Shown here: piece after piece, positions 6,178 through 58,383 of the stretch
Numbering within the stretch: the stretch's first letter is position 1
Layout of the letters: every line of letters begins with the position of its first letter
DNA from: Sympetrum striolatum
Taxonomy: Eukaryota > Arthropoda > Insecta > Odonata > Libellulidae
Assembly: GCA_947579665.1 (NCBI GenBank)
Contig: OX388345.1
Span: 56,969,454-57,033,453 of the forward strand
Reading direction: 5' to 3'
DNA: 64,000 bases
Notes under the pieces: model-generated
The model's database searches: none
Told to the model about the DNA's origin: nothing
The model's input: the letters and a program-made list of their open reading frames with translations, nothing else
Program-made: the position numbers and the translations under genes

Positions 6178-7620
6178 GCAGCCAGAACAGGCACTAAAAA
6201 AAATAATTATATTCAGTAACAGATTAAATACGTGAGATGCTATAAACACAATTACATTTTTAATTGCACTAAACTTATGCTACAGTTTCACAGATAGAAA
6301 TTAGCTGAGCATAGAATTTTGCAATTTTTTATTGGAATTTCTTTCGTATCATCAGCTTCGAAGATCGCAAAATCCATGCGTATGAGAACTCAATCAGCTT
6401 ATACTGCATTCAGATGAATAAGACGAATAACTAAGAATAATTAGATAAAATTATAACAAAAGAATAGAGAGAATAATCACCCTTGCTTTTACTGATACAA
6501 TGAACTAATATGTTTTGCTTTTGAAGGGCGTATATAGCATAAAATACGGTCTATTGATCCTTACATACTTGAGTATGTTTACTACCGCAGCATATCCAAG
6601 CGGAATACCGATTTTAATTCCTAATATGGACACAAGAATTGCTACGATAAAGAAGCAGCAAATCTAATATTATGCAAATTATTTCGAAAGTTTTAATTAC
6701 GTTTTACCTTTTCTACGGGAGGCACTTTCTCACAAAATCATCTCGCCACTTAAGAAGTCATTCATCCAGCCATTGTTTCCACTAAATACATCCACTAGAA
6801 TAGCTGCAACAATGTCGCTTTTAAATCTCACCTATTAAAACTCTCTCTCTTTCTCCCATTGATTTATGCCCGCCATTGAAAAGAGATTTATAAAGGCACT
6901 TGTATGTAAATGGGCGTGGACCTATCAACGGGGAGTGAGACGAGAGGAATAAAGATTCAAAAGTAGGTTCCGGAGGTATGCCGTAGAAAGAGACCGCGTC
7001 ATCCGCGAAACTTAGGAGACTTTGGAGTGAATAGAACCTATGGGACAGTTGTGAAAGTATTAAGTTTATGAGATGAGTTAACGGTAAATCCGAAGATGAA
7101 GGAGGAGAAAGTGATCGGAAGAAGGAATAAGATGGAAAGAGAGAGGAGGGTGGATATGGATTGGCAGTGGAAGATGGAACGGTGAGCAGAGGAGGCGCGT
7201 GACCCAGACAGCTGACCTCGATATGGGGAAGCGATGAGACAAGCATCCGAAGCGGCAGCAGATGAGATGGAGCAGTAATGACCAAGCGCGGTCGCGGAAC
7301 AGTCGCAGGGATGTAGGAGGCATTTATCTGGAGCATACACAGTGATTATATTTGGGTTTGCTTTCGAAAGCGGCAGATGAGCTCTCGAAGATGATTATCT
7401 CGTTGCGGATGAATGAGCAGCTGCGGCTTTTAATCGATGTGGAAGATGAATGATAGCGTATGATATATCGAGGCAACAAGGAGAACATTGACCTAATATG
7501 AGCGGTTACTTTTCGTATAATGTTCCATTTCGGTCCTCGCTATTACTGCCTTGGTTGATAAAACATTCCATGCAGAGCGAGCCAAGGTAGGATAATTTTA
7601 AAATAAATTAATTAAAATTA
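6178..7620. other. No gene seen; purine-biased tract in the middle
   Basis: From about 6950 to 7330 the plus strand is rich in GA-type codons, which opens overlapping frames of 81-171 codons on the minus strand. Their products are low-complexity Ser/Pro/Leu-rich and overlap each other in two frames, so composition explains them better than coding. The rest is AT-rich filler. Confidence 0.45.
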
Positions 7621-18223: not shown

Positions 18224-18291
18224 AGGACCGGGGAATCGAAGCCGGGTCTCTTGATTGCTCGTCATGTACTCTGTCCGTTGAACTATCCCAC
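18224..18291 (-). repeat. tRNA-derived SINE head (left member of an inverted pair)
   Basis: The minus strand reads GGGATAGTTCAACGGACAGA (A-box-like) and, about 45 bases on, GGCTTCGATTCCCCGG (B-box-like). This is a tRNA-shaped promoter module without a closed acceptor stem. Its 3' half is repeated in inverted orientation at 18309-18352, so the region can fold on itself. Confidence 0.55.
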
Positions 18292-18308
18292 CTATTTAGG
18301 TAAAAGAG

Positions 18309-18352
18309 GCGGGATAGCAATCAGAAGACCCGGGTTCAATTTCCGGTCCTTT
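18309..18352 (+). repeat. tRNA-like SINE fragment (right member of an inverted pair)
   Basis: GCGGGATAGCAATCAG followed by GACCCGGGTTCAATTTCC carries a B box and pairs with the minus-strand head at 18224-18291. The A-box part appears to be deleted. It is the plus-strand half of a SINE foldback. Confidence 0.5.
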
Positions 18353-18431
18353 CAGAATATTTTCGAGTCCTTTTCCCTATTCTTATTTCAGATTTTTCCT
18401 GGGTGCACGCCATCTTCCGCATAATACCTCA

Positions 18432-18441
18432 CCCACATTCC
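18432..18441. repeat. Target-site duplication of the interrupted SINE, left copy
   Basis: CCCACATTCC here is identical to 22565-22574. Between the two copies lies a minus-strand SINE split by the 3981-bp foldback element, so the pair marks the original SINE insertion site. Confidence 0.65.
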
Positions 18442-18560
18442 AGTAGTAGTAGTATCGTTAAAAGTGCATCGACAGCTTAGGTCATTTTGCACATTGGCTC
18501 ACACCGGGAATCGAACCCGAGACCGCTTTCACCGAAGGCAAACGCGCTGTCCACATGACT

Positions 18561-18569
18561 ATCCGGGAG
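18561..18569. repeat. 9-bp target-site duplication, left copy
   Basis: ATCCGGGAG occurs here and at 22551-22559. The preceding bases differ (T versus C), so the duplication is exactly 9 bp. It defines the ends of the foldback element. Confidence 0.8.
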
Positions 18570-18755
18570 CGTGACCCGACAACTGACCGCGCGACAATTG
18601 ACCGCGTACCAATTGACCGCGTACCAACTGAACGCTACGACAATTGACCGCTACGACAACTGACCGCTCGCGACAACTGACCGCGTAACAACTGACCGCT
18701 ACGACAACTGATCGCGTCTCGTTTTCTGGAATCATTGAAGGAACGAAATTTTGAT
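18570..18755 (+). repeat. Left TIR: about nine subrepeats plus inner block
   Basis: About nine units, each containing (A/G)ACAA(C/T)TGACCGC or a variant, run from 18577 to about 18715. They are followed by GCGTCTCGTTTTCTGGAATC. Variant units, such as one with TGAACGCTAC and one with GACCGCTCGC, occur in the same order as in the right arm. The arms are therefore homologous rather than independently expanded. The array is GC-richer than its surroundings. Confidence 0.8.
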
Positions 18756-21220
18756 TTAAAATTTGGAGACCCCGTCCTATCTTAATGATAATTATCTTAG
18801 ATTGTTACACAGTAATAATTTTTTATGTTTATGATGTATACAAAGCAGAAAAATGTCCTTATTGATACCTTAAATTTCTAGGAAACCTTATTTGTTACAC
18901 ATGAATAATAAACTGTTTAGATAAGGAACTCCTTCGAAAATATATGTGATTAATTGCGTTCCATGTCTTACTAAAAATTTTTTAAAATTTTGGGACAAAT
19001 ATGTCCCTATGGGTTGGCGGCCGCATAACGCTGCATCGCCGAATTTTCACCGTTCTTTACTCTTACACTCTTTTCCTCCCAATGCCTTACCATTTAAATC
19101 TAAACAGAAATTCGCATATGTCTAATATTTTGGTGTGATAATGTTAATGTTATTAACTCTTTTAACAGACATCCTTTGGAAATAATACGAAACACTACGC
19201 ATCATTAGCATCACGATCAGTATAATTCTGTAATCCTTCACTTAATTGCTCTCTCAAACCAATGCAATTATTATAAAATGTATTTCAAAAACTTAGCAGT
19301 ACTGCCTACTTTCAGTACATCATATGATTCCATTACCTTTGCCTTTTCCGTTTCATTCATCATGGAGTTGTAATTTTCACAAGATCTACAGCGAAGCTCC
19401 AGGTCACTGGCTCACATGGTAATATTGCACCTCAATTAATACGGACTTAAAAATCTATTAAAGCTTCATGATAAAATGCGAACATGAGGGAAAAAAAACA
19501 AAACATACTTCTGCTTCCACGTTAGATCATTACTAACTTTATTTTTATAGCTATTCTTAATAAAAAAACAATAACTTGAACTCGTCTACAGTAAAATTAC
19601 GTTTCCCTTTCTTATATATGCAATGAATCAAACATTCACTTACTGAAAGATATCCTCTCAGCAATGACCAGTTGTGTGCGGCTTATGTCGGCGTAGAACT
19701 TCAAATAAGTTCCTTTGAAGGGGAAAGCAAGAGGGGGAAATGTGTGTGATGTATGCTTTATTTTCATACGCACATACATTGTGACCGAAAAGCTTATACG
19801 ACCATCTAATCGCTGCATTCATTCTTCATGATCTCTTACACAATAATGATAGCCAGACTTACGCTATGTATGGCATTATCCATACCGAATGGTCAACCTA
19901 CATAGTAAAAATAGCTTCCCTAGGTTCCCTCAAGAAACTGTTTGCGATGCTGCCACATCTATTCACATCTATATATCAGTATTCGCTGATATAAGATATA
20001 TACTTGATTTTTACCTATTATGATAAAGATGGGTACTTGATTGTTACAAAAGTTGAAAAACTACGAGTGATGACATGAAATGATTTCTTAGTAAAAATTT
20101 TATTTTTAGTCACTAAAGTAGTAATTGCTGTTTAAGACTATCTCAGGATATATTTCACAATATACAGTATTTTTTAAAGTTCAGAAACGTTATCGTATAA
20201 TTTCTTGAATTATATTACTACCTAAGTTTCAGATTTTAATTTAACGTAGTGTTAATATAGAAGTATATAATGAAAAAGTGTGACATGTTACTTAAATGTC
20301 TTCAAATATAAGGAGGAAAGGATTTATAAATAATAGCAGAAGTTCCGAAAATTTTCAACGGGAGAAATGGATGTAGTATTGAATATAATCTTCATATCTA
20401 GATTATCATAGTTATCTACAGGATAATGTGTACTTTACTATACTATAATACTATACAAGTCGTGATATAATCAATTTTTAAGCTTTCACTGGTATTCAAA
20501 GTGATGATCAACGTCTGATAGGTCTGATTTAGTGAACTTCAAACATTAAAGATATGTTTCACCCCAATGCCTCGTGGTTGTAAACGAACTATGTAGTGTA
20601 AATAATTATAAATTGCCTCTTGCGCCAGTTAGTTCATTGCTGAAATTTAAGTTTGTTCAAAGAAATTTTAGTCACTCCGAAAATGTAATCTTGATACTAA
20701 AAGCTATGTTGGTATATGTATCGACAATTGTAGTGTCATAGCTTCTGATCAGCTCGGTGATGTTTTTCAAATCCGTAAGACTTCTCTTTATGCAGTTATA
20801 GTTCCATGCCATATTCACTCATACGAGTTTGTCTAAATCTTATGAAATAATGGTATATAGTTAGAAAATATTTTGAATTAATGCGCGGATTTAAAAATTT
20901 CTTTCTTTTTTCTTCTAAAATAAGTTATGTTTTAAAGAGAGAAATGGGAGGAATGTTGTGTAGCTTGTGACATATGGATATATTGAGTGAAATTACTTCT
21001 TGGATTTATAGAATTTCATCAAACAACGCAAATGTGCTCCTTTATACCCTAACAGTACATGTCGTAGATAAGAAAGTTGATTTATCAATATAGTTAACAA
21101 TCTTAGTGAGCTCCGAGGGAATAAGAAAAAGCCTTACAAGGAAGTAAAAGCCTGGATGGGCATCTAATTCTTGTCTATTTTTTTCTCGGAGTATTAGAGA
21201 AGCTACGAGCAGTTAAACTT

Positions 21221-21291
21221 ACACACCCCCTGCCTCACGCCAATGGTGGTTTGTAGGATCAATGTGTGAATGTAAATATAAAAAAATAGTA
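21221..21291 (+). repeat. SINE-tail-like fragment 1
   Basis: CACCCCCTGCCTCACGCCA, then GTAGGATCAATG and ATGTAAATATAAAAA. The same ordered blocks, diverged, occur at 22065-22112 and 23236-23305. They resemble one another and are probably 3' parts of one SINE or LINE family. No promoter boxes are attached. Confidence 0.4.
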
Positions 21292-22064
21292 AGTTAATTC
21301 ATTGTTTCTATGAAATTCATCGAATCTGTTTTCACCTTAACACTCTCGACTAGTAAGTCACTCCAGAAAAATCACTAGATATCTCTTTAGTAAGGAGATG
21401 CATTAAGGGTAAAACCAACGGCCTAAAAACGGCTTTTTCTGATAGCGCTACAGCAGCATAAAATAAATTAACTATTTATAATTTACAGTTAAAAGCTCCC
21501 AATTGATGGTACATATATTCTTAATTACTCATTAAGGATAAGCGGAACGCAGTTTTTACTTCGTTAACACAGACATACTTCACACAGATGTGCTAAGTCA
21601 TTTAGTGAAAGACTGTATAAATGTAAAAATAGCCTCCTGGTGTGCAATATCAACGACTTAATCTTTTCATTATATTTTGTATCCGTTTAAATATTATGGC
21701 ATTGCATTATTCTGTGTACTTTTAACGGTTTGAAGTTATGAATTCTGTTCTACTCAGAACCGTCCAGGAATAACTAATGCTGTGTAAATTATAAAATCAC
21801 TGGCAATATAAGTCCAAATATAAGTGGTATATGGTTTGTGTATATGATAGGACAGTATCAGATAACCGCAGAATGTTAATTTACGTACCTAATTATCAAC
21901 GGAGGTAATAAGAAAAGTGATATAAGTAGTGACATTTTTGAGGATTGCGGTGAAGAATATATGCAGAATCTATTTAAGAATCCAGGAAGAAATTTAGCCT
22001 AAAAGTTATTAATTCGTTACCGTCAAAAAATTGTTACATTAGACTATTTACATTTCCAACTGTT

Positions 22065-22112
22065 ATCTCCTGCCATACGCCACTCGCCGGGTACATATCT
22101 AAATCTAAAATC
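22065..22112 (+). repeat. SINE-tail-like fragment 2
   Basis: CTCCTGCCATACGCCACTCG followed by TAAATCTAAAATC is a short, diverged relative of 21221-21291, inside the foldback element. Confidence 0.3.
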
Positions 22113-22364
22113 TTAACCAAGTCCCGTACCCAGACATGTCCGCAAAGTGAATTTAATTGTTCATTTATCAGTATTTAATAAATATTGCTCGTAATAAGAT
22201 AACATTCCTGCTCAATACTGTTATCTATAAGAAAGCGTTGTAAAAAAATTTAGTGATATAAGTATCTAATTTATGGTATTTTAATCAGTATTCGGTAAAA
22301 TGACTACCGCTCGATTGCTACCACAAAATAACTACATTTCATACAATTTTGTGTACCGTACTTC

Positions 22365-22550
22365 AATTAATGCTTCCTGAAAACGGAGACGCGTTCAGTT
22401 GGTACGCGGTCGGTTGGTACGCGGTCAATTGGTACGCGGTCAGTTGTCGCGAGCGGTCAGTTGTCGTAGCGGTCAATTGTCGTAGCGTTCAGTTGGTACG
22501 CGGTCAGTTAGTACGCGGTCAGTTGTCGCGCGGTCAATTGTTACGGAACC
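22365..22550 (-). repeat. Right TIR: about ten subrepeats plus inner block
   Basis: This is the inverted counterpart of 18570-18755. About 107 bp of the outer array match the left arm with only a few differences by eye. The inner end has one extra unit and different unit variants before the shared GCGTCTC block. A 115-codon frame reading through it (22349-22696) yields a Trp/Tyr/Ala/Val repeat and is an artefact of the array. Confidence 0.8.
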
Positions 22551-22559
22551 ATCCGGGAG
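22551..22559. repeat. 9-bp target-site duplication, right copy
   Basis: ATCCGGGAG is identical to 18561-18569 and lies directly outside the right TIR. Confidence 0.8.
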
Positions 22560-22564
22560 ACCAC

Positions 22565-22574
22565 CCCACATTCC
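22565..22574. repeat. Target-site duplication of the interrupted SINE, right copy
   Basis: CCCACATTCC matches 18432-18441. The next bases enter the PLE remnant, so the SINE inserted beside or into it. Confidence 0.65.
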
Positions 22575-28662: not shown

Positions 28663-28915
28663 TTTAGGGAGAGTAAAGAAGTGAGGGAGAGTAAAGAAGT
28701 AAGGGAGAGTAAAGAAGTAAGGGAGAGTAAGATACCGGAACTATTTCGTTAACTACGTTCTGAGAAGCAAATTTAGGTGTTAAAATTTCTCTCTGCTCCA
28801 AGAAATTCGTTTTGGGACCTTTTCGATGGATATGCAGAATTTCAGGAATGAAAGATGAGAAATGGTGAGAATCATTAAGGTGTTGAGCAAAGTGAGAGGC
28901 GGGAGTATTATTTAA
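28663..28915 (-). pseudogene. Penelope-like element coding tail (C-terminal fragment)
   Basis: The minus strand, read from about 28912, gives NTPASHFAQHLNDSHH, FSSFIPEILHIHRKGP, KTNFLEQREILTPKFAS and QNVVNEIVPVSYSPLLLY, ending at TAA near 28663-28665. The S.FA.HL....H ... IL...RKGP..N.LE..EI pattern is the region after the GIY-YIG domain in Penelope-like proteins. It is supported by an independent homologous copy at 22600-22810. The last part is stretched by an in-frame 18-bp repeat coding SPLLLY units. About 80 codons remain of a protein that is normally several hundred residues long. The 5' side stops at the inverted pLTR piece. No ATG is expected in this fragment. Confidence 0.75.
28666..28730. 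repeat. 18-bp tandem repeat, about 3.6 copies
   Basis: The unit is AGGGAGAGTAAAGAAGTA with near-perfect copies. As 18 is a multiple of three, it keeps the frame of the PLE coding tail (minus strand, SPLLLY per unit) up to the stop. Confidence 0.85.
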
Positions 28916-34485: not shown

Positions 34486-34552
34486 GAAACTACACTAGCC
34501 AATGAAACTACACTAGCCAATGAAACTACACTAGCCAATGAAACTACACTAC
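34486..34552. repeat. 18-bp minisatellite, about 3.7 copies
   Basis: The unit is GAAACTACACTAGCCAAT, perfectly repeated three times plus a partial copy. It lies within a 116-codon minus-strand frame and gives SLASVV repeats, but that frame has no other support. Confidence 0.85.

Positions 34553-52696: not shown

Positions 52697-52724
<28 letters not shown>
52697..52724. repeat. Tetranucleotide tail of the retrotransposon
   Basis: Seven ATTT units on the plus strand are (AAAT)7 in the sense of the element. Short tandem tails rather than poly(A) are common in CR1/L2-group elements. Confidence 0.85.
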
Positions 52725-52727
<3 letters not shown>

Positions 52728-52737
52728 CCTTTATTGG

Positions 52738-52778
52738 CGAGGTTAGGCCCAAGTGGGCCTCTCTTCCACCTAACCTCG
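52738..52778 (-). promoter_or_regulatory. Nested 3'-terminal hairpin of the retrotransposon
   Basis: CGAGGTTAGG (52738-52747) pairs with CCTAACCTCG (52769-52778). Inside it, AGGCCC (52745-52750) pairs with GGGCCT (52755-52760) around a four-base loop. The two stems overlap by a few bases, so they may be alternatives or partly stacked. It sits about 14 bp from the tail, where RT would recognise the RNA. The related 3' end at 9911-10020 keeps the inner hairpin with different bases. Confidence 0.6.
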
Positions 52779-53265
52779 TATGTCGTCATAATATGAATAA
52801 TTATAAATTAAATTATAACAAAAGACAGAGTAGATTGTGGGGAAAAATCTTTGCAACTGAAGGTTGCTAAAGAAAAACCCACGTTACGGGAAAACACCCA
52901 CAGAGAAGGGGGGTGAAAAAAACCCGCGAAAACACAGTAAAAATGACAATTAAATACAGACACTAATAAAATTACATACAGAATATACATAAATCAATGA
53001 ATTTACAGAAGAAAATAAAAATATTATTAATTTCCTACTAAATAGTATTTGTCAGAGAAAAATAATAAATAAATAAAGGTCAGCCAGCGGCGTCCGTCCA
53101 CTTTTTCAAATTTATCTCAGCAGAAAGAGGGTGAGATGAACCTGAAAATGAAGAGAGAAATAAAGGGTAGATGAGATGTATACATAGCTATTCAGATTTG
53201 AAAAAAAACACAAAGGAAGAGTATTGATTGGGTGTAACGACGATTTGAAGGAATGATGGAAAGAG

Positions 53266-56200
53266 CTAAGTAGGTATTTGTTGTTCTGACCGATAGAGTT
53301 TTTCAAAGATCTCGCGTTTAAATGAAAAGAAAGATGATTGTATTAATTTTGGTTGAGCAACTTCATTCCAGTATTTTGCTCCGATGACAAGGAGAGATTT
53401 ACTGCAAATTTCGGTTCTATGAATTGGTATCATGAGTTTGCCAGTGGGACGAGTTCCTAGTCCTTGCGTGTTGTTCAGTATAGTAAAGTAATTATCGAGG
53501 TACCTGGGGCAACATTCATTGAGAACTTTATACACGAGATTAAGAGTGTGAAGTTTTCTTCTTGACTGTGGACGAAGCCACTTTAATTCTTTTAAAAGTG
53601 GGGAAACATGATCAAATTTTTTGGCGTTGAAGATAAATTTGACCGCATGATTAAAAGCTCTGTCTAATTTAATGGTGACCGTTTTGTTTGCTTCATTCAT
53701 TAGTGTGTCACAATAATCAAAGATAGGAAAAATTAACGCTTGAACAAGTAATTTTTTCAGCTTAAATGGTAAAATATACTGCAATCGTTTCATATTTTGA
53801 AGAGTTGAATATGATTTCCTGCAGACTTCCGCTACTTGAGGAACCCAAGTAAAGGATTGATCTAAAAGTATTCCTAGATTCTTTACAGATGAGCTGAAAT
53901 CGATTTCAATGTTGTCAATTTTTACTTTGGGTAGTGTAAGAGTGTTGATGTTTCTCAGTATCTTGGGATAGCCAAATATTATACTCTGAGATTTACTTGG
54001 ATTGATTTTAAGCGCCAATGAGTTAAGCCATGAGTGTAGGAGGGTGATATCATTATTAATTAGGTGGATGGCTTCAATAGAGTTTTGCGGTTCCGACGAT
54101 AGATATATTTGTAGATCATCGGCGTATAGGTGGTAAGAAACGTGTTTCAAGTAAGAGGACAGATTTTGGAGGTAAAGAGAAAATAACAAAGGCCCGAGAA
54201 TAGAGCCCTGCGGAACGCCATGATTGTTTATTATTACAGAAGAGTATATATTGTTAGCGAAGCACGTTTGGGATCTATTTGTAAGATATGAAGAAAACCA
54301 TGATAAGGTGGAGGGAGAGAGGTTAAATATCCTTAGTTTGGCAAGGAGTAAATCAATCTGTACTGAGTCAAAAGCTTTGCTGAGGTCAATTAGGGCAAGA
54401 AAAGTGATTTTCTTTTTGTCCATTGCGATCCTTATGTCATCAGTGACTTTAGTAAGTGCCGTAGAAGTACTGTGGTGGCGTCTAAAACCAGACTGGTAAG
54501 GATCGAAGAGATTATTCTCGGTCAAAAACCTTGAAAATTGAATATGTACTAGGCGTTCGAGACTCTTGGATAATGATGGAAGAATACTTATTGGGCGGAA
54601 GTCGTTCAAATCGGATGGAGTACTCTTTTTAGGAATAGGATGTATGACAGATGTTTTCCATTGTGAAGGAAAGATTCCGTGAGAAAGGGAGAAATTAAAA
54701 ATATGTGTTATGTGGGGGAGAAAGGCATAGAGAATTTTATGGATGAACTGGATCGGAATACCATCCATGCCTGTAGCTGAGGATTTGATGGCCAAGAGAG
54801 ATTTTTTAACTTCACTGGAGGACACTGGCTTAAATTTGAATTCAGAATTAGTTAGAGGTGTTTGAGTAGTTATGGACAACAGCGACTTTCGGAATTCATC
54901 GGGTGTTAATTTCGTGAAGTTGTCAACAAAATGTTTGTTCATACTATCAGAGCTTAAGTTATGCGGGAATAAGTATTTAGATTTACCAACACCTAGCTTC
55001 GATAATCCTTTCCATAAGGACTTGCCAGAGGAATGTTTAAGGAGTTCATCTGCAAATTTAGTTTTGGCTTTTTTAATTGAACTTTTTACTTTATTTCGAA
55101 AATATTTGAATCTCTCATAATCCGTAATTAGTTTGGATCGTTTATATTGATTTAGAAGTTTGTCTCTATGTCGCATTAAAGACAGAATTGACTCACTTAT
55201 CCACGGAGTAGGTTGATTTTTTACGCGTCTGGTTTTAAGAGGAGCATGCTCGTTAATTAATTCACTGAAAAAAGTATTAAGCATTTCAACCTTTCCGTCT
55301 AAATCGTTAATAAGGAAAATATTATCAAGCGGGAGTTGCGAAATCGAATGATATAAAGCTCTTAAGTCTATATTATTTAAGTTACGGTAAGTTATTATTT
55401 TTGGCGATGTCCTTTTCGAGCGTGTTGCGTAGTTGATATATAAGAGATCGTGCGCCGAAATACCGGGTGCTGATAATTGCCCATGATTTAAGACTTTACT
55501 CCGATTGCTTACGAGGATCAGATCCAATAATGTGGCAGAGTGGTTAGTGAAGAACGTTGGATTTAAAGGGAGAATATCAAAGTTCAAGGAATTGAATACA
55601 GATCTCAATTGATTCGATTCGGAACTATCAACACAGAGGTTTGTGTTGAGGTCTCCCATAATTATAACATCATCGTAAAGATGTAAGAGTTCAGACAAAG
55701 CGTCTTCTATGTCAGATAAAAATCCTATTTTTGGAGGCTTATAGATTATGCAGTAGAGCAGTTTTTTCTTTTTTAATCTAATTTCAAGCATGATATATTC
55801 GGGACGACCGCAATAGTTAGGTTGAGAGTGAGAGATTAATTTATATTGCAGGCCCTCTCTTATATATACACATACGCCGCCACCTCTTTTACCAATCCTA
55901 TCGTTTCTGATTAGGTTGAAGTTAGGAATGTTAACAATTGAAGAGGAAATATTGGGTTTTAACCATGACTCACTAACACCTATTAAATCGATACCGTCCA
56001 CAGTGCCTATAAGTTTAATTTCATCTAAGTGTGCGGGTATGCTTTGGGCGTTGATGTGCACTGCCATGAGAGATCTTCTGTGGAAAGAAGCTAAACGGTG
56101 GAGACTTTCTGGTGCTGAGTACTGATCGAAGTTGCGGTAAGAAGGAAGTATTTCAGAAGAGAAAGTGAGGGTAGAAGAGTTTGGGAAGAATGCACATGCA

Positions 56201-56343
56201 TTGGGATTCAATGAGTCATTGTAGTTTGCTGGGAAAAACTGAGTGGCAAGAGGACTCAGGTAAGAAGCGATGGGGGGTGAAACGAGTTGTTTTGAGCATT
56301 TCAAAGCATGACAAAGGGAATTCTGAGAATTGTGAGGGAGCAT
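53266..56343 (-). CDS. Retrotransposon ORF2: endonuclease/reverse transcriptase, 1025 aa
   Basis: Encodes the enzyme for target-primed reverse transcription. An APE-type endonuclease occupies about residues 92-300, with its catalytic set visible: N98 (HINAQS), E125 (VSESWL), Y201 (YKPP), D231 and N233 (GDLN), D274 (LLDLI) and H298-D299 (SAHD). The reverse transcriptase spans about 500-800, with TGMDGIP (524-530), NDFRPIS (580-586), D653 in ALIDLSKAFD, PQGSILGPLLF (711-721) and YADD (740-743). The C-terminal part has KNLGILLDQSFTW and a region ending in RR.L..L..VYKVLN. Start: an in-frame TAG lies 24 bp upstream of this ATG. Length fits CR1/L2-group ORF2. No stop or frameshift was seen. The Ser/Pro/Leu-rich first 90 residues are unusual, and the ORF is separated from ORF1 instead of overlapping it. 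Confidence 0.95.
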   Translation of the reverse strand: MLPHNSQNSLCHALKCSKQLVSPPIASYLSPLATQFFPANYNDSLNPNACAFFPNSSTLTFSSEILPSYRNFDQYSAPESLHRLASFHRRSLMAVHINAQSIPAHLDEIKLIGTVDGIDLIGVSESWLKPNISSSIVNIPNFNLIRNDRIGKRGGGVCVYIREGLQYKLISHSQPNYCGRPEYIMLEIRLKKKKLLYCIIYKPPKIGFLSDIEDALSELLHLYDDVIIMGDLNTNLCVDSSESNQLRSVFNSLNFDILPLNPTFFTNHSATLLDLILVSNRSKVLNHGQLSAPGISAHDLLYINYATRSKRTSPKIITYRNLNNIDLRALYHSISQLPLDNIFLINDLDGKVEMLNTFFSELINEHAPLKTRRVKNQPTPWISESILSLMRHRDKLLNQYKRSKLITDYERFKYFRNKVKSSIKKAKTKFADELLKHSSGKSLWKGLSKLGVGKSKYLFPHNLSSDSMNKHFVDNFTKLTPDEFRKSLLSITTQTPLTNSEFKFKPVSSSEVKKSLLAIKSSATGMDGIPIQFIHKILYAFLPHITHIFNFSLSHGIFPSQWKTSVIHPIPKKSTPSDLNDFRPISILPSLSKSLERLVHIQFSRFLTENNLFDPYQSGFRRHHSTSTALTKVTDDIRIAMDKKKITFLALIDLSKAFDSVQIDLLLAKLRIFNLSPSTLSWFSSYLTNRSQTCFANNIYSSVIINNHGVPQGSILGPLLFSLYLQNLSSYLKHVSYHLYADDLQIYLSSEPQNSIEAIHLINNDITLLHSWLNSLALKINPSKSQSIIFGYPKILRNINTLTLPKVKIDNIEIDFSSSVKNLGILLDQSFTWVPQVAEVCRKSYSTLQNMKRLQYILPFKLKKLLVQALIFPIFDYCDTLMNEANKTVTIKLDRAFNHAVKFIFNAKKFDHVSPLLKELKWLRPQSRRKLHTLNLVYKVLNECCPRYLDNYFTILNNTQGLGTRPTGKLMIPIHRTEICSKSLLVIGAKYWNEVAQPKLIQSSFFSFKREIFEKLYRSEQQIPT

Positions 56344-56742
56344 GATTACGCCAAGAAAGAATAACTAAGTCGAAAATAAATGAGAAACGAAACGAAAAAC
56401 CACTGGTTCAAAGAACAAGAAGCGTTAATCTAAAAGGAGCGTATGTAAAATATACTCAGGAGAATACGTCAAGGATGAACTTTACTATGCAGTAAACAAG
56501 GTATATTAACTAGATATAATAATAATAAATATATGGAAAATAAAAATAAAATAAGGAATACAAAAGTATATGAAAAAGAAGGGAAAGAGGTGAGAGGAAT
56601 GTAGAAAGTACTATTGACAATTTAAGGGAAAAGGGTAGAGAGAAGGTAGCGATGATTATGGGAATAAGAGAAAGAGAGAAAATGATAAAAGAGAGAGAGA
56701 AAAGTCCTCGGGAAAAAAAAAAAAGCCCTCAGAGCTTTTTAC
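56344..56742 (-). other. Inter-ORF spacer of the retrotransposon
   Basis: 399 bp without coding content between the ORF1 stop and ORF2 start. In the sense strand it is pyrimidine-rich in its first half. A small hairpin (AAAAAGC ... GCTTTTT) lies directly after the ORF1 stop, followed by a run of T. Many elements of this group have overlapping or abutting ORFs, so ORF2 translation across such a gap would need reinitiation or internal entry. Confidence 0.55.
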
Positions 56743-57498
56743 TTAACTTTTTGCCGGAGTGGCTATTGCCGGGAGCTGTTTGGGGGTTGCCGTTGACGGG
56801 TGTGTGGCTGCGAAGATTTTTCTGATGTCCTCTAGTGTTGTGGCCGTGTGCTTGATTCCGTTGGACCCAAGAACAATTATTCTCCCGTCCGATGTCCACA
56901 CATTTTCTCGGCCAAAGGATTCTTTTGCTTCATCGAGCACTCTTTTCCGGTAGTTGGTGAGGCTCTCCGTGATGAGGAATCCGGTGTTCCGCAGCCGCTT
57001 CTTATTTTTCCACACCAGGTCCCGATCGGCGTATGAAACAAATTTCACGATGGTGGGCCTGTGTCGATTGTGGCCGCGATTCCTTTGCCCAACTCGATGA
57101 GCCCTGTCGATGGATTGCACAGGAATTTTAATTCCAATTTTCGCATCAAAAAAACCAATAACATTATTTATCGATACTTCTCCTTCGTGCTCCGGGAGCC
57201 CGTGAATAAGAAGGCAGTTTCTGCGGCTATACTGCTCTAAGGCATCCAACCGCTTCTCCTGCTCCTCCACTTGCTCACGGAGCCTTCGTATCTCCATCAC
57301 GGCTGTCTTTACGTCTTCTTTGATGGAGGCCATCACCTTCTCCAGGACATCGTCAGGGTTTTTGTTGTCTTTCGGGCTCTCCGTTTTCTTCAGTTGCTCT
57401 TTGATCGCAAGTGATATCTTCGGGGAGAGCAACTCTTCTACTTTCGAGACGATGGATGCGGCCTCATCGTCCACCTTGCGTGCCCTTGCCTTAGCCAT
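56743..57498 (-). CDS. Retrotransposon ORF1 protein, 251 aa
   Basis: A putative RNA-binding chaperone of the element's ribonucleoprotein. Residues about 50-90 form a likely coiled coil (heptad-like EIRRLREQVEEQEKRLDALE). Next come RRNCLLIHGLPE (92-103), IDRAHRVG (130-137), RPTIVKF (147-153), ESLTNYRKRVLDEAK and SDGRIIVL. This order (coiled coil, RRN-LLIHGLPE, DRAHR-G, RP-IVKF) is typical of ORF1 proteins from CR1/L2 and other non-LTR elements, with a fold related to the L1 ORF1 RRM/C-terminal region. No zinc knuckle is visible. The N-terminal 45 residues are charged and the last 20 are Ala/Pro/Thr-rich. Start: first ATG of the frame, about 45 bp from the tentative 5' end. It is GC-richer than the flanking DNA. 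No disruption was seen. Confidence 0.9.
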   Translation of the reverse strand: MAKARARKVDDEAASIVSKVEELLSPKISLAIKEQLKKTESPKDNKNPDDVLEKVMASIKEDVKTAVMEIRRLREQVEEQEKRLDALEQYSRRNCLLIHGLPEHEGEVSINNVIGFFDAKIGIKIPVQSIDRAHRVGQRNRGHNRHRPTIVKFVSYADRDLVWKNKKRLRNTGFLITESLTNYRKRVLDEAKESFGRENVWTSDGRIIVLGSNGIKHTATTLEDIRKIFAATHPSTATPKQLPAIATPAKS

Positions 57499-57548
57499 CC
57501 TCCGGGTTGGGTTACCTGTTGGGGGTGAATGGGTTAGCTCTGTACATC

Positions 57549-58149
57549 TCCTGAGCGTGTTTTAAATCCAACCACAACTGGAGTTTGGATTTTTAATGCA
57601 TATCGATAAATCATTTTTCCACCTACTTCACTGATTTCTCTGTGGAAGAATGTCCTGCATTGAAACTGTATACTTCCGCACGCACCAGTGGCGTATTTGA
57701 TTCCTCTAAATCCATGTCTCCGGTAACAAACAGAGATAAATTATCCTACAAACAACAAAACTTTCATTTTCTGAGAATAGGAGTACGAGATATATGGTCC
57801 TCTTAGAGAATGAGCAGTATGAAGAGATCACTCACTGAATTATGCATGTTAATTCCATCCTAATCTAAATTTTTTTATAAATGTGAATACTTCAATGGGT
57901 TGGAAAAAATTTGGAAATATCTGTCCACAACAGCTGATTCTGAGAGCTACAGAATTATAACAAACCATATAAAACGTTGCTGTTTAAAATTACTAGATTT
58001 AGCACCCTCGTTCAGTATTTCTGTATGATGAATGTGGTCAGCTAAATTATGCCCATAACAGTATACTGGGTTTTCTATACCAACACTTCCTATTAACTCA
58101 GGTTTCTTCAGTTTTGAGATGCTGGGATAAACAAGAATCCCTTTATTTA
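57549..58149. other. No gene seen
   Basis: Intergenic sequence. A small stem (AAATCCAA with TTGGATTT, 57567-57593) lies just upstream of the retrotransposon's likely 5' end. Confidence 0.45.
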
Positions 58150-58268
58150 CCGGCCGTGGTGGCGGAGTGCTAGCGCGTTAACGCTCCAACGCAAATTGAC
58201 GCTCACGGTCCCGGGTTCGGATCCCGGCTAATTGGATTTTTACAGTTAGGGAATGGTTGTCTGTGTAT

Positions 58269-58292
58269 GTTGTGTGTGTGTGTGTGTGTGTG
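58269..58292. repeat. (GT)n microsatellite
   Basis: About eleven TG units within the SINE body. Confidence 0.9.
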
Positions 58293-58383
58293 AGTGATAT
58301 TAATAAAAATGCAAAAAAATAATAAAAAGGGGTTAATTGGAGGAATTGCCTTCATAGGCTTAGATTCGCCCATAAAAAGACGG

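Follow-up and report, generated by a model that had tools for sequence, protein, structure and literature searches.

Tandem subrepeats within long terminal inverted repeats (TIRs) have been described for the Mutator superfamily of the mosquito Aedes aegypti, in which 10 of 12 families with long TIRs are reported to have subterminal tandem repeats of 9-15 bp (PMC5225508). As described there, Muta1 has TIRs of 145 bp, composed of a 10-bp terminal motif and nine 12-bp repeats with spacers of 3-4 bp, and Muta5 has TIRs of 151 bp, composed of an 8-bp motif and nine 15-bp repeats; both generate duplications of 8-9 bp. Muta1 is accompanied by over 300 putative derivatives, most of them with variable interiors, and Muta5 by over 200, and in a yeast assay the Muta1 transposase mobilised transposase-less derivatives while Muta5 did not move (PMC5225508). 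The Tm1 elements of root-knot nematodes are likewise reported to have a variable number of units, most often of 14 bp, together with asymmetric 7-bp ends outside the inverted repeat and mostly 9-bp duplications; a Phantom-type transposase is predicted in one kind of member, and most members are without one (PMC3169594). Here we report on a 3981-bp element with subrepeat TIRs at positions 18570-22550 of a stretch of 64,000 nucleotides (hereafter the window) from Sympetrum striolatum (Odonata, Libellulidae; assembly GCA_947579665.1, contig OX388345.1, positions 56,969,454 to 57,033,453, forward strand). The element lies within a short interspersed element (SINE) and is probably a non-autonomous Mutator-superfamily transposon.

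The element and its host SINE

Exact direct repeats of 9 bp, ATCCGGGAG, stand flush with both ends of the element (18561-18569 and 22551-22559), in agreement with the initial annotation, which had proposed both the length of 3981 bp and the flanking repeats. A match of 9 bp at fixed boundaries has a chance of 4e-6 if equal base frequencies are assumed. Each arm of the long TIR measures roughly 186 bp, with an approximate inner limit. Read from the tip inwards, the left arm (plus strand) consists of the terminal 7-bp motif CGTGACC (18570-18576), an array of nine units of 15-17 bp with the core CAAYTGACCGC (18577-18716) and an inner part (18717-18755). The right arm (minus strand) begins with the motif GGTTCCG, read inwards (22544-22550), which is followed by ten units of 15-17 bp (22391-22543) and an inner part (22365-22390). 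Beyond the arrays the arms match imperfectly over some 30-40 bp (TCTCGTTTTCTGGAA / TCTCCGTTTTCAGGAA), and the inner limits given for both inner parts are approximate.

The arrays noted earlier, inverted relative to each other and built from a 15-17 bp unit, are confirmed by repeat finding as well as by pattern counts. Tandem Repeats Finder reports period-15 arrays at 18577-18715 and 22389-22545, and with a relaxed unit pattern 9 units are recognised in the left arm and 10 in the right. The unit-pair pattern GACCGC-N3..8-AAYTGACCGC has 10 matches in the window, all inside the two arrays and evenly divided between the strands (5 on plus, 5 on minus), and is absent from all 100 dinucleotide shuffles. 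Measured from the tips inwards, both arms have identical values for their first seven unit spacings (15, 15, 15, 16, 16, 17, 15). If the arms are aligned in register from their tips, 3 of the 7 terminal bases agree, then 31 of 37, and then 74 bp are identical (18614-18687 / 22433-22506), the longest run in 200 shuffles being 13; over arrays and tips together 133 of 161 aligned columns are identical and 28 differ. The spacings common to both arms and the 74-bp identical run show that the arms form a single inverted repeat, in which the units follow the same order, rather than arrays that arose by chance. When the left arm is folded alone as a single strand, the result is not special (z 0.02).

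Outside the 9-bp repeats lie the two parts of a minus-strand SINE. Its larger (3') part, with a B box, an (ACT)n tail and one copy of the 9-bp duplication, occupies 18442-18569, and its first five bases (the 5' end) are found at 22560-22564. If the flanks are joined so that a single copy of the 9-bp repeat is kept, a continuous SINE of 133 bp is restored between exact copies of its own 10-bp target-site duplication, CCCACATTCC (18432-18441 and 22565-22574), a 10-mer that the window contains at these two places alone. The 9-bp target corresponds to bases 6-14 of the SINE. The proposed nesting, with both duplications preserved, is thus borne out, and the order of events is clear: the SINE was inserted first, and the foldback element second. 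Since both duplications are still exact, the insertion of the foldback element is presumably not very old, and the 28 differences among the 161 columns of the arms would for the most part be older than the insertion or result from turnover of the arrays.

While the minus-strand SINE itself stands, the tRNA origin that had been assigned to it outright is to be regarded as likely. A perfect B box, GGTTCGATTCC, occurs at base 58 of the joined SINE, in which a strict A-box pattern finds no match. At base 14, the sequence TAGTCATGTGG departs from the A-box consensus TRGYNNARNNG at one position, a level of agreement that is also reached once more in bases 1-60 of the SINE and at 378 of 63,989 positions on the plus strand of the window. 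It begins 44 nt ahead of the B box, which is the usual spacing in tRNAs. ARAGORN called no tRNA on the joined SINE, so that the likely tRNA origin is read from the boxes. Rfam gave no match at the gathering threshold in the window. The window holds no other clear copy of the 133-bp SINE, the best further match being 22 nt long. Just outside the SINE, at 18225-18353, two tRNA-like stretches are found in opposite orientation, one on the minus strand (18225-18295), which contains the A-box match TAGTTCAACGG, and one on the plus strand (18311-18353). They agree in 29 of 35 aligned columns, the repeat search reported no inverted repeat there, and the two are possibly a second, rearranged SINE pair.

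Coding capacity and superfamily placement

The interior of the element (18756-22364, 32% G+C) has no detectable coding capacity. The longest stop-free run in the core (18756-22375) is 69 amino acids long, a length equalled or exceeded in 175 of 200 composition shuffles, and when the 38 stop-free stretches in the element that reach 38 amino acids or more were scanned against Pfam, 0 of 38 gave a match at the curated cutoff. No transposase was found in this copy by these two tests, which short exons or decayed remnants in the interior could escape, and the earlier description of the copy as non-autonomous and without a transposase is thereby upheld. Sub-cutoff Pfam matches occur in 5 of the 38 stretches, one in each, with E-values from 0.01 to 0.28; the best is TC1 (E 0.01, 16.2 bits, cutoff 27), followed by Anp1 (E 0.023). 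All of them were taken as chance matches.

We interpret the element, with a probability of roughly 0.8, as a non-autonomous Mutator-superfamily transposon that moves by cut-and-paste and belongs to the Phantom/Muta "type 2 Foldback" elements. In the Mutator superfamily (MULE) the autonomous member is recognised by a MULE/DDE transposase, and in the Phantom/Muta type 2 Foldback kind by a FLYWCH (or SWIM) zinc finger together with a MULE transposase. What the present copy has of this kind is the anatomy of its ends, that is, a 7-bp terminal motif followed by 9 or 10 tandem units of 15-17 bp within the TIR. The duplication of 9 bp, seen in one copy, is inside the range of 8-11 bp given for the Mutator superfamily (PMC6446971) and outside the 7 bp of Galileo and the P superfamily. 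The initial annotation had offered the FB and Mutator groups as an open choice that included P-type elements. Because Galileo gives duplications of 7 bp while Phantom/Muta and Tm1 give 8-10 bp, that choice can be narrowed to Mutator, with Phantom/Muta favoured.

If this placement is correct, the element would be moved in trans by the transposase of an autonomous relative encoded at another genomic site. Binding of this enzyme to the repeated units of about 15 bp in both arms would bring the two ends into contact; cleavage at the 7-bp termini and insertion by a 9-bp staggered cut would follow, the target being bases 6-14 of a SINE with tRNA-like features, already in place with its own 10-bp duplication. 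By analogy with known elements, the units are putative transposase-binding sites. Galileo is a foldback element from a different superfamily; the DNA-binding domain of its transposase is reported to bind sites in the tandem repeats of the TIR, which were suggested as a source of specificity (PMC3688188).

Several observations weigh against a placement in Phantom/Muta. Family membership is read solely from the anatomy of one non-coding copy, and its terminal 7 bp agree at just 3 of 7 positions. The unit is weakly like motif C of Tm1, with 7 of 14 positions in register as the best of 8 comparisons, which is reached in 4% of shuffles. Between the arms 28 of 161 columns are different while the flanking duplications are exact, and we therefore have to assume that the arms diverged before the insertion or that they turn over fast. 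Finally, duplications of 9 bp and inverted termini with tandem repeats are likewise described for Rehavkus (PMC6446971, PMC10218199), a group known from arthropods and annelids that one phylogeny placed as an outgroup to the Mutator elements and that is defined by a PHD-finger transposase.

A non-autonomous Rehavkus element is thus the alternative that deserves most attention, and it would account for the equal duplication length of 9 bp and for the size of the TIR, which falls into the range of 26-400 bp given for Rehavkus (PMC6446971). Rehavkus-1_TC also has tandem arrays inside its inverted termini, but its unit is 164 bp long as against 15-17 bp here (PMC10218199), and we consider this explanation unlikely. 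A Galileo-like foldback element of the P superfamily would explain the internally repetitive arms, as Galileo is described as having long TIRs of this sort, and the first copies described consisted of long TIRs only. Galileo copies, however, are bounded by 7-bp sequences and the present exact duplication has 9 bp; moreover, the most proximal transposase-binding site of Galileo is reported at about 70 bp from the end (PMC3688188), while the present array starts at base 8, which makes such an origin very improbable. Arrays of short units can also arise on their own, and the whole is known here from one copy, so that two independent minisatellite arrays might flank 3.6 kb by chance, with no single element involved. 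This is hardly credible in view of the unit spacing and the 74-bp identical run common to both arms, the flush 9-bp duplication at both ends (with the chance of 4e-6 at equal base frequencies given above) and the restoration of the SINE with its own 10-bp duplication once the interval is removed.

Within the Mutator placement, the unit of this well-preserved element could represent a new family, but the kind as such has already been described in mosquitoes and root-knot nematodes. It is conceivable, although rather doubtful, that the element represents a Mutator/Foldback family of arthropods not described so far, with 7-bp ends that always differ from each other as those of Tm1 do, with units rather than tips that provide the specificity for the transposase, and with a 74-bp identity that results from conversion between the otherwise diverged arms. 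The locus is in any case a clean nested insertion with both duplications intact, and it provides exact ends for a possible further Mutator/Foldback family. Such ends would aid the annotation of the host genome and the finding of an autonomous partner; to the understanding of how Mutator/Foldback elements work they add little.

Searches for relatives and other features of the window

The collections searched for relatives consist mainly of prokaryote and phage DNA, and misses in them carry little weight. The left TIR gave no match by blastn against phages and plasmids, and a three-unit pattern, which finds the window's own arrays twice, had 0 matches in viral contigs. A two-unit pattern matched at least 120 stretches in the viral and at least 120 in the bacterial and archaeal collections. 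Among the 240 pattern-matched loci listed, one (L186) has three unit-like sites within 160 bp, two loci have two, and the rest have at most one; the same unit pattern has 8 sites in the left arm. The locus with three sites, in a cyanobacterial record (Oscillatoria sp. SIO1A7), matches the right arm by blastn at its positions 7119-7186 (E 4e-6, 77% over 73 columns), and other pattern-matched loci give lesser matches to the arm. These prokaryotic and viral matches, that of the cyanobacterial locus included, are probably due to chance, because the loci were picked by the pattern itself. Short unit strings searched as literature text returned matches of which those listed looked unrelated, although the family may nevertheless have been published.

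The window as a whole is AT-rich, with 29.5-42.1% G+C in steps of 2 kb. Its minus strand probably contains a nearly complete long interspersed element (LINE) at 52697-57561. An upstream open reading frame (56743-57561, minus strand), which is ORF1 by position and has only sub-cutoff Pfam matches, is followed by the frame for the endonuclease and reverse transcriptase (53266-56364, minus strand; RVT_1, E 6e-36) and by an (AAAT)n tail (52697-52725, minus strand). The LINE protein resembles reverse transcriptases and has 151 protein matches; among the 120 listed, 14 are given with an organism, namely 13 Lepidoptera (34-44% identity) and a brittle star, and no match was found in the bacterial and archaeal genome collection. 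These matches suggest a host that is probably an arthropod. A tRNA-like SINE head was recognised by eye at 58150-58240, with a B-box-like sequence, GGTTCGGATCC, at 58214, and lies beside (TG)n repeats at 58258-58296. Two 18-bp units that differ from each other form short arrays, at 34486-34551 (3.7 copies, 100% matches), inside a stop-free frame of 128 amino acids, and at 28666-28730 (3.6 copies, 97%).

Comparison with known systems

The TIR unit had been presented as unfamiliar, but the architecture itself is already known from Muta and Tm1. Closest in build are Muta1 and Muta5, in which the TIR, as described, likewise consists of a short terminal motif and nine tandem repeats of 12-15 bp, the duplications are 8-9 bp long and the element length of 3.2-3.5 kb is similar to the 3981 bp found here (PMC5225508). 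In contrast to the present element, Muta1 and Muta5 encode a transposase, and the end of Muta1 is a 10-bp imperfect palindrome whereas the ends here are 7 bp long and differ between the arms (PMC5225508). The likeness to Muta is one of architecture, compared by description and not by the sequences of the units (PMC5225508).

With regard to the asymmetric ends, Tm1 of root-knot nematodes comes nearest, the two ends here, CGTGACC and GGTTCCG, being alike at 3 of 7 positions. The members of Tm1 are shorter, with 1.1 and 2.6 kb in two whole examples, and the 3-bp motif B and the purine-rich motif D described for Tm1 are not evident by eye in the present element (PMC3169594). The units differ as well: the best agreement with motif C, at 7 of 14 positions, is not distinguishable from chance after 8 comparisons and gives no evidence of descent. 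Foldback (FB) elements of Drosophila share subrepeat TIRs and 9-bp duplications with the present element, a likeness that is by description only.

Rehavkus is similar in its 9-bp duplications, in the tandem repeats of its inverted termini and in its arthropod hosts; Rehavkus-1_TC differs in its 164-bp unit and in its element length of 9.5 kb (PMC6446971, PMC10218199). Tetris of Drosophila virilis, as described, is likewise an apparently non-autonomous foldback element with duplications of 8-10 bp, and was likewise assigned to Mutator by its anatomy alone, but its units of about 220 bp are arranged in far longer TIRs of up to 1,735 bp (PMC4079207).
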